Of a stretch of DNA of 48,479 nucleotides, positions 4,474 through 6,734 are shown in pieces. The notes below the pieces were generated by a model. The model had not been told where the DNA came from, ran no database searches, and saw only the letters and a program-made list of their open reading frames with translations. This stretch comes from Candidatus Dadabacteria bacterium. GTDB lineage: Bacteria; Desulfobacterota_D; UBA1144; Nemesobacterales; UBA2774. Numbering within the stretch: the first letter of the stretch is position 1; each line of letters opens with the position of its first letter. The stretch lies in contig JADLGH010000003.1 in the NCBI GenBank assembly GCA_020849425.1, forward strand, positions 1-48,479, given 5' to 3'. The translations under genes were made by a program, and so were the position numbers.

Positions 4474-5235
4474 GTGATTACGAGAAGGAATTTCTTTAAA
4501 ACACTGCTTGCGGGAAGCGCCGGCGTCCTCTCCCTCCCGCTTCTGGGATTCTACGAAGGCTCCAAATTTCACTTCGCCCAGGTTTCGTACGCGGGCGGCG
4601 ACTGGGATCCGCGCCCGAGGGACTACAAGCGGCTCATGAGCGCGCTCGAGCTCAGGACCAGCGTTGTAGCATCCTACGACAGAAAAGTCGTCTCGCTCTC
4701 GGACCCCGACCTTTTCAACTACCCGATGCTCTACCTCGCGGGCGACGAGGCCTTTACTCCTTTCGCCGACGAGGACAGGAGAAGGCTCAGGAAGTTTTTA
4801 AAGCTCGGCGGCACGCTCCTCGTGGACGACGCCACCGGCTCCGAGAGCTCCCCCTTCGACGCACAGATAAGAGAGGAGCTCTCCCTTACGATCCCCGAGA
4901 CGCCCCTTCAGCGCCTTTCGCGGGAGAGCGTCGTATTCAAGTCGTTCTACCTCCTCTACTCCGCCGGCGGGAGGAAGATAATCAGCCCCTACCTCGAAGG
5001 CGTGACGTTCAGCGGCGAGGACCGTACGGCGGTCATCTATTGCCGGAACGACCTCGGCGGCGCGTGGGCCGAAGACGAGTTCGGTAAGTGGGAATTCGAA
5101 TGCGTGCCCGGGGGGGAATCCCAGAGGGAGCTCGCCTTCAGGCTCGGGATAAACATTATCCTCTACGCCCTCACCGGCAACTACAAGAAAGACCAGATAC
5201 ACGTACCGTTCATAAAGCGGCGGCAGCTTCTCTGA
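4474..5235 (+). CDS. Tat-exported DUF4159 domain protein
   Basis: The 253 residues begin with a twin-arginine signal (TRRNFFK at 3-9, then a hydrophobic stretch to about residue 25), so the protein is probably exported folded to the periplasm. The body matches DUF4159: FHFAQVSYAGGDWDPRP near 32, MLYLAGDEAF near 89, LKLGGTLLVDDATG near 109 and the terminal FRLGINIILYALTGNYKKDQ. The fold is class I glutamine-amidotransferase-like, usually found in MoxR/BatA-type gene clusters, but here it stands alone. The start is GTG with no Shine-Dalgarno. Function is unknown. Confidence 0.85.
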   Translation: MITRRNFFKTLLAGSAGVLSLPLLGFYEGSKFHFAQVSYAGGDWDPRPRDYKRLMSALELRTSVVASYDRKVVSLSDPDLFNYPMLYLAGDEAFTPFADEDRRRLRKFLKLGGTLLVDDATGSESSPFDAQIREELSLTIPETPLQRLSRESVVFKSFYLLYSAGGRKIISPYLEGVTFSGEDRTAVIYCRNDLGGAWAEDEFGKWEFECVPGGESQRELAFRLGINIILYALTGNYKKDQIHVPFIKRRQLL

Positions 5236-5319
5236 CGTAGCCGCCCCGTCCTCGATCCTAAGATACGCGCAAAGGTTTCGACACATATTTTCCGCGCCGC
5301 CGTTGATTCGCTGCGCCCG

Positions 5320-5354
5320 AAAAAGACCGGGGGCGATCTGACGATCGCCCCCGG
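5320..5354 (-). terminator. Intrinsic terminator, minus strand
   Basis: Perfect 12-bp inverted repeat with a 4-nt loop, followed on the minus strand by TCTTTTTC. The plus-strand side has no T run, so it does not serve the upstream DUF4159 gene. Confidence 0.75.
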
Positions 5355-5405
5355 CAGCCAAGAAGGACCCAAGGTGTTAGGGAGGGTAAAGCCGGATAAA
5401 AGGTG
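5320..5405 (-). ncRNA. Candidate small RNA (Pho-box-associated)
   Basis: Inferred minus-strand transcript of about 86 nt. Array 2 (5429-5470) is followed 11 nt later by TACTGA (5417-5412) as a possible -10, giving a start near 5405. The transcript ends in a perfect 12-bp stem (5327-5338 with 5343-5354, loop TGAC) and the tail TCTTTTTC, a canonical intrinsic terminator. No minus-strand protein gene lies between promoter and terminator. The 5' half contains the C-rich stretch ACCCTCCC, complementary to Shine-Dalgarno sequences. It could instead be a stray terminator. Confidence 0.4.
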
Positions 5406-5428
5406 GCATCATCAGTACACCACCCCGG

Positions 5429-5470
5429 GATTAAGGCGATGTTCAGAAAAGGTTAAGGCAAGGTTAACCG
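5429..5470 (-). promoter_or_regulatory. Four direct repeats at 11-bp period (Pho-box-like array 2)
   Basis: Plus-strand hexamers TTAAGG, TTCAGA, TTAAGG and TTAACC begin at 5431, 5442, 5453 and 5464. The order, period and the trailing CGGGGG match array 1 at 234-275. Read on the minus strand the repeats are CTTAACC-type heptamers with 4-bp spacers. The array points toward the sRNA candidate; in the other direction a TATAAT for the EamA gene lies 28 bp away, so both could be controlled. Confidence 0.5.
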
Positions 5471-5560: not shown

Positions 5561-5971
5561 ATGGACAGATGGTACACCATGATAATCCTCGCGATAGTGT
5601 GCTTCGCGGTCGGGAGCTTCCTCGGGAAGCTCGCGTCGTTTAAAGACATTCCGCACCGGGTCTACTTCTTCGAAGGCGTGGGCACGCTCACCGTGTTTAC
5701 GACGTTCGTGCTCTACAACCGAGGGGTCATATTCGACAATTTTTCATTCAACGCACCCGCCCTTCTCATGGGGCTCACGTGGGGAATAGGCACAATCCTC
5801 TTCATCGCGGCGCTCAAATACGCCAAGCTCTCCGTGACCGTGCCGCTAACGGCCGTCTACCCCGCCCTTACGGTCATACTGGCGCTCATATTCCTGGGGG
5901 AAAAGCTGAGCCCGAGGGAGATAGCCGGCATCCTCCTCGCAATCGGGTCGGCGGCTCTTCTGGCAAAATGA
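5561..5971 (+). CDS. Half-size EamA/DMT transporter
   Basis: The 136-residue inner-membrane protein has about five hydrophobic segments and one EamA repeat, half the usual ten-helix DMT transporter. Marks are GSFLGKLA near 18, the GLTWGIGTILFIAALKYAKLSVTVP-type stretch (residues 71-95) and the end ALIFLGEKLSPREIAGILLA, which is typical of the second EamA half. Such half-size members act as homodimers or pairs; the substrate cannot be told. It is downstream of array 2 and convergent with the glycerophosphodiesterase, hinting at lipid or phosphate-linked regulation (inference). Confidence 0.85.
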   Translation: MDRWYTMIILAIVCFAVGSFLGKLASFKDIPHRVYFFEGVGTLTVFTTFVLYNRGVIFDNFSFNAPALLMGLTWGIGTILFIAALKYAKLSVTVPLTAVYPALTVILALIFLGEKLSPREIAGILLAIGSAALLAK

Positions 5972-6029: not shown

Positions 6030-6734
6030 TCAACCCCCCGGAAGAATGTCCGGTCTGTTCGTCACTATTCCGGTCACGCCCATGTCCCTGAGTGCCCTCG
6101 CCTTCCCCTCGTCGTCCACGGTCCATGTAAACGTATAGAGGCCGCGGCTCCTCGCCCTTTCGACCAGCCCTTTCGTTATAAACCACCTGAACGGCGCGAC
6201 CGCGTCGGCCCCGCACCTCTCGGCGAGCGCGACCGGGTTCCCCGATGCGAACATTATGAGCCCCGTTCTCATCCCCGGGTCGAGGGCTTTTACGAGCCTT
6301 AGCCTGGGCGCATTGAACGAGACTATAAACACGTCGTCCCCGAGCCCGCGCGCGCCTATCTCGCGGATGACCTTCTCCTCTATCCCGCTTTCCTTCAGCT
6401 CTATGACGAGCTTCGCCCTCCCGGAGCACGCGTCGAGCGCCTCCTCGAACGTAGGGATTCTCTCGCCCTTCCCGGCGTCGAGCTCCTTCAGCTCGGCGAG
6501 GGTTTTCCCGGCGACCGGGCCTTTCCCGCCGGTGGTTCTATCGACCTTCGCATCGTGTATCACGACGAGGCGGCCGTCGAGCGACTGCCTCACGTCGAAC
6601 TCCACCATCTCCGCCTTCATCCCTATCGCCCTCTCGAAGGAGCGTATAGTATTCTCGGGCTCGTACGCGCTCGCCCCGCGGTGGGCGATTTTTACGAACG
6701 TAGGCGATTCCCTTCCGGCATCTCTCCCGGCCAT
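6030..6734 (-). CDS. Glycerophosphodiester phosphodiesterase (UgpQ/GlpQ type)
   Basis: TIM-barrel enzyme of 234 residues that cleaves glycerophosphodiesters to glycerol-3-phosphate and an alcohol. The catalytic blocks are complete: HRGASAYEPENT (first His and the metal Glu), EFDVRQSLDGRLVVIHDAKVDRTT (residues 39-62; metal-binding Glu/Asp and the second His) and GKGERIPTFEEALD. No signal peptide is visible, so it is probably cytosolic like UgpQ. It ends convergently with the EamA gene and starts divergently from the UbiA-like gene. Confidence 0.93.
   Translation of the reverse strand: MAGRDAGRESPTFVKIAHRGASAYEPENTIRSFERAIGMKAEMVEFDVRQSLDGRLVVIHDAKVDRTTGGKGPVAGKTLAELKELDAGKGERIPTFEEALDACSGRAKLVIELKESGIEEKVIREIGARGLGDDVFIVSFNAPRLRLVKALDPGMRTGLIMFASGNPVALAERCGADAVAPFRWFITKGLVERARSRGLYTFTWTVDDEGKARALRDMGVTGIVTNRPDILPGG

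Follow-up and report, generated by a model that had tools for sequence, protein, structure and literature searches.

The window analyzed here is a stretch of 48,479 nucleotides from a Candidatus Dadabacteria genome. No protein gene was found in it between the end of a DUF4159 gene (4474-5235, plus strand) and the start of an EamA-family transporter gene (5561-5971, plus strand). The minus strand of this interval carries a candidate small RNA (sRNA) locus at 5319-5468, with the following features:

5429..5468, minus strand: Pho box of four half-sites with exact 11-nt spacing (leave-one-out motif score; the pstS and phoB arrays are alike)
5468-5462, minus strand: half-site 1, GTTAACC
5457-5451, minus strand: half-site 2, CTTAACC
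5446-5440, minus strand: half-site 3, CTGAACA
5435-5429, minus strand: half-site 4, CTTAATC
5411..5422, minus strand: core promoter TGGTGTACTGAT, with the -10-like TACTGA at 5417-5412 (88% mean column identity)
5320..5409, minus strand: putative sRNA gene of ~85-90 nt, start inferred near 5409 (covariance model, 14/16 family genomes)
5401..5409, minus strand: 5' segment ATGCCACCT, candidate seed A (conserved; mostly unpaired in single-sequence folds)
5380..5387, minus strand: ACCCTCCC run with a CCCTCCC core (varies in one genus)
5356..5374, minus strand: segment D, CCTTGGGTCCTTCTTGGCT, candidate seed D and the best-conserved part (96% mean column identity)
5319..5355, minus strand: intrinsic terminator with a 13-pair stem including the closing pair, a 4-nt loop and TCTTTTTC (six compensatory pairs)

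The terminator hairpin CCGGGGGCGATC/TGAC/GATCGCCCCCGG occupies 5327-5354 and forms a perfect 12-bp stem with a 4-nt loop. It is followed 3' on the minus strand by TCTTTTTC at 5326-5319, while the plus strand lacks such a T-run. TACTGA is a weak -10 element located 11 nt from half-site 4, and about 55 nt without strong structure separate the TACTGA region from the hairpin. Within segment D, UCCUUCUU is complementary to Shine-Dalgarno sequences of the AAGAAGGA type. The original prediction had described an 11-bp array, TACTGA and a perfect 12-bp hairpin with a T-run, with no protein gene between them; all were found on the minus strand where it had placed them, and the ~90 nt concerned are gene-free. 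Its estimate of an ~86-nt transcript was slightly corrected to about 85-90 nt, and the 5' end it had put at 5405 was moved to ~5409. The start of transcription is likelier near 5409 than 5405, although its exact position is not fixed.

A perfect 12-bp hairpin with a loop of 3-8 nt occurs only once in the window and was found in none of 40 dinucleotide shuffles. With a motif model trained on other genomes, the source genome being left out, the array at the sRNA promoter scored 34.6, compared to 10.9 for the best of 40 shuffled windows and 10.5 for the runner-up in the real window. The predicted fold of the RNA was better than that of all 200 shuffled sequences (z = -3.8), with the terminator contributing most.

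A DNA search identified the locus in 12 further members of the same family. We then used a covariance model (R1) of the transcript alone, with the promoter left out. This model matched a single copy in each of 14 of the 16 family genomes (E 1e-15 or better) and had no match in the other 42 genomes of the phylum. Nor was an sRNA seen next to EamA in other families. Two family genomes lacked a match. In G001 the contig starts inside the neighbouring EamA gene, i.e., at a contig break, while in G002 the 118 nt that separate the EamA and VOC genes contain no such RNA, which is a true loss. In a third genome, G013, the array was found to be shifted and damaged and segment D decayed. No PhoB orthologue was found in the 90%-complete G013 assembly, and pstS of this strain keeps its box; the sRNA locus of G013 looks like a case of decay, with an assembly gap being possible. 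Because the sRNA is lost in G002 and seemingly degenerate in G013, it appears to be dispensable. A pattern scan with the promoter plus the 5' end matched Dadabacteria records as well as three that carry the label Deltaproteobacteria or Thermodesulfobacteria. The remaining matches were from unrelated phyla and were put down to chance (~7 expected by estimate).

The four half-sites and their spacing, the -10 region, the two unpaired segments and the terminator were kept together in 13 of the 14 carriers, so that the predicted outline of a response-regulator-controlled sRNA (array, -10, transcript region and terminator) holds for the sequences of nearly the whole set. Mean column identity was 51% in both the upstream and the downstream flank, 80% in the array and 88% in the -10 region, where TGNTGTANT was invariant in the 13 aligned genomes. 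Within the RNA it was 93% for the 16-nt 5' segment, 87% for the CCCTCCC region, 96% for segment D and 87% for the hairpin. The best-kept unpaired segment was GGGTCCTTCTTGGCT, and the 5' ATGCCACCT was likewise conserved. By comparison, ACCCTCCC, which had been singled out as an anti-SD run, is replaced by ACCCACCC, ACAAACCC or ACACACCC in one genus and does not stand as a feature of the family. Since its CCCTCCC core is changed to CCCACCC, CAAACCC or CACACCC in that genus, this core is unlikely to be the key of the sRNA.

Six pairs of the terminator stem showed compensatory changes, in 17 cells, a result equalled in none of 500 shuffles, and the alignment of the stem was 98% paired, compared to 31-55% for slid controls. 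The array and terminator, on whose conservation in relatives the original prediction had been staked, are therefore both kept while the flanks have diverged, and the covariation of the hairpin that it had proposed to look for is present. Two further helices suggested by RNAalifold, GCCA/UGGC and AUCC/GGGU, had no compensatory changes and were partly broken in G006 and G007, and we regard them as unproven. In two genomes of one genus, a 20-nt insertion in the sRNA folds into a long additional hairpin (L048:1501-1613 and L049:1501-1613). The extra hairpin differs in a compensatory manner between the two genomes, and the GGGTCCTTCTTGGCT segment stays nearly intact.

By the published definition, a PHO box consists of direct repeats in tandem, each 11 nt long, in which seven positions are conserved and four are less so (PMC4415409). 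The array has tandem 11-nt repeats, shares its motif with Pho genes and is followed by a -10 element at 11 nt, compared to the distance of about 10 nt expected for a box that replaces the -35. In the source genome the array pattern occurred 55 times, compared to 18 times for the reversed control. An array of the sRNA type was found upstream of all 13 testable pstS orthologues. It lay 46-51 nt before the 11 that were scored with a motif model built from sRNA promoters alone, and became visible for the remaining two after correction of the start codon. PstS was identified by PF12849 and by TIGR02136, the latter above cut-off, and the array was absent from distant PstS paralogues (40-41% identity). 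The array was also found between the gene for a PhoB-type regulator and that for a phosphate-selective porin (PF07396), and it was present upstream of phoB in every case where the contig covers this region. In the source genome, a 5'-nucleotidase-like gene has the array in front of it as well. The name PhoB rests partly on this context, as the best model for the regulator, TIGR02154, gave 239 bits and is below its cut-off of 296. As the same array type is found at pstS (13/13) and beside phoB, the sRNA array is a Pho box, and the phosphate link of the original prediction is supported.

Having its own promoter and its own intrinsic terminator, and no conserved ORF, the locus has the make-up of a stand-alone intergenic sRNA gene. 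No gene was constantly found downstream, as would be expected for a cis-acting leader or riboswitch, and Rfam gave nothing in the sRNA region at the gathering cut-off (top sub-threshold match 16.5 bits vs. 43). In nine carriers a VOC/glyoxalase-like gene does follow on the same strand, about 100 nt past the terminator, and the conserved RNA could be the 5' leader of this gene, its terminator acting conditionally as in an attenuator or riboswitch and the product being a protein, not an sRNA. However, the RNA is kept in G000, G006, G013, and G015 without a downstream VOC gene, G002 has retained the VOC gene with the RNA gone, and covariation supports no alternative antiterminator helix. Because RNA and VOC gene occur independently of each other, in both directions, we rejected a VOC-gene leader, which we find very unlikely. 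It is also highly improbable that the transcript, whether purely an mRNA or a dual-function RNA, encodes a small protein from a leaderless ORF that starts at the conserved ATGCCACC. The ATGCCA is invariant, the transcription start is inferred to be at or near it, and the opening codons read MPPxI or MPSxI. The putative ORF, however, varies from 10 to 50 codons, is shifted in frame by indels, ends in unrelated C-termini and in several readings passes through the terminator. This explanation was rejected since length and frame are inconsistent across the family. The Pho box could instead serve the EamA gene (5561, plus strand) alone, in which case the minus-strand hairpin would be incidental. 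Every carrier has EamA as a syntenic neighbour, but it is the minus side that is conserved, including the core promoter, the array spacing and a 90-nt stretch made up of unpaired sequence and the terminator, whereas the sequence from the array to EamA is unconserved. EamA orthologues outside the family, and that of G002, had no strong array upstream, and we give this possibility hardly any weight. Judged from the comparative sequence data, the locus is very probably a real sRNA gene under the control of a Pho box.

With respect to the mode of action, neither Hfq (PF17209) nor ProQ (PF04352) was found in any of the 58 genomes of the phylum, while the controls were positive, so that, by this search, the host of the sRNA lacks the chaperone on which an Hfq- or ProQ-dependent base-pairing sRNA relies. 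Given two conserved, mostly unpaired pyrimidine-rich segments and no Hfq or ProQ, chaperone-free pairing to ribosome-binding sites would be the likeliest mode. A search of the family for the complement of segment D (19-mer, three mismatches or less) recovered the sRNA gene and otherwise only scattered sites in coding regions, and three of these that recurred in one genus represent one conserved coding stretch. AAGAAGGAC before ATG was not enriched over the reversed control. The start of metK was matched in the target search, with G003 as the only genome compared. The start of nusG, ATGGATAATAGGTGGTAT, pairs well with the 5' segment in one genus and less well in the other genera tested. We rejected nusG as a target, since the match is explained by the conserved NusG residues RWY and persists in G002, which has no sRNA. 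No candidate with conserved complementarity to the sRNA survived the searches with segment D, AAGAAGGAC and the 5' segment. This lack of a specific mRNA, together with the resemblance of segment D to an anti-Shine-Dalgarno sequence, would fit a PhoB-induced RNA that titrates a protein or ribosomes instead of pairing with specific mRNAs. Segments A and D are, however, conserved well past the anti-SD core, and the RNA showed no recurring motif for protein binding, for example GGA loops. Titration is therefore unlikely, and action of the sRNA by base pairing seems likely.

We infer that phosphorylated PhoB would occupy the four tandem half-sites when phosphate is scarce. The bound PhoB would substitute for a -35 element and bring RNA polymerase to the weak -10, resulting in an RNA of ~90 nt that ends at the intrinsic terminator. 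The two conserved and largely single-stranded pyrimidine-rich segments (5' AUGCCACCU and GGGUCCUUCUUGGCU) would bind the purine-rich ribosome-binding regions of target mRNAs by base pairing, with neither Hfq nor ProQ taking part, and the targets would be translated less for as long as phosphate is short. Altogether, we favor, with a probability of about 0.83, a stand-alone, PhoB-activated Pho-regulon sRNA gene of one Dadabacteria family, acting independently of Hfq and ProQ and lowering translation. Chances are about even that a PhoB-activated sRNA which silences translation through two conserved seeds, without Hfq or ProQ, counts among the core outputs of the phosphate response in the whole family.

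A search of the open-access literature gave no paper on a Dadabacteria sRNA. Phosphate-linked sRNAs are a known but sparsely populated kind, and the Dadabacteria sRNA family is new. RsaE of Staphylococcus aureus and FsrA of Bacillus subtilis are sRNAs with C-rich seeds that do not rely on Hfq. They resemble the Dadabacteria sRNA in having unpaired C/U-rich stretches able to reach Shine-Dalgarno regions, but the latter reaches no Rfam cut-off and its CCCUCCC is unconserved.

EsrL of enteropathogenic E. coli is described as a phosphate-induced sRNA with a reported PhoB site upstream (Jia et al. 2023, cited in PMC10294691), while PhoB binding at esrL was not seen in K-12 ChIP-seq (PMC10294691). 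As described there, EsrL is alike in being a small RNA with a reported upstream PhoB site and a phosphate response. It belongs to another phylum and to a host that has Hfq, and the likeness is one of description. For the Dadabacteria sRNA, by comparison, 13 genomes keep the box, which matches the pstS box in kind. In Sinorhizobium meliloti many sRNAs are described to change level upon phosphate limitation, some of them Hfq-bound; these were found by expression (PMC8829014). The PHO boxes of E. coli, S. meliloti, B. subtilis, and Streptomyces are alike in consisting of tandem 11-nt repeats that replace the -35 element (PMC4415409). The Dadabacteria half-site is (C)TTAAC or TGAA in four units, as opposed to CTGTCAT or GTTCACC in known PHO boxes (PMC4415409). 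Direct PhoB control of an sRNA is rarely argued for, and the one E. coli case that was found, EsrL, is disputed. The box of the Dadabacteria sRNA has been kept in five genera and matches that of pstS in kind, so the phosphate link of this sRNA rests on evolution and not on one strain. As neither Hfq nor ProQ was found in the host lineage, the sRNA may belong to a pathway that works without a chaperone or with some other helper. If the proposed reading is true, the Pho regulon would include an sRNA arm in a lineage without any described regulatory RNA.

Pho-type arrays were also observed at other loci. A weaker array (score 4.8) is located in the window at 232-276 on the minus strand, immediately before a gene that is truncated by the start of the contig. 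The product of this gene contains MTTLIVSDVHLGSG and looks like a calcineurin-type metallophosphoesterase, and the array is probably the one that the original prediction counted as its first. In many carriers EamA is adjoined by a glycerophosphodiester phosphodiesterase gene (6030-6734 of the window, minus strand), which is a common Pho-regulon function; no array was noticed upstream of it. Arrays near position 1500 of L056, L057, and L053 (G000 C78, C18) were found before a glycosyltransferase gene, before an ORF without a Pfam match and near a DinB-family gene. A strong Pho-type array with a GATTAT -10 was found at L054:1497-1541 (G000 C37), before an ORF of 195 aa without a Pfam match that is divergent from pstS and may represent a new Pho gene.
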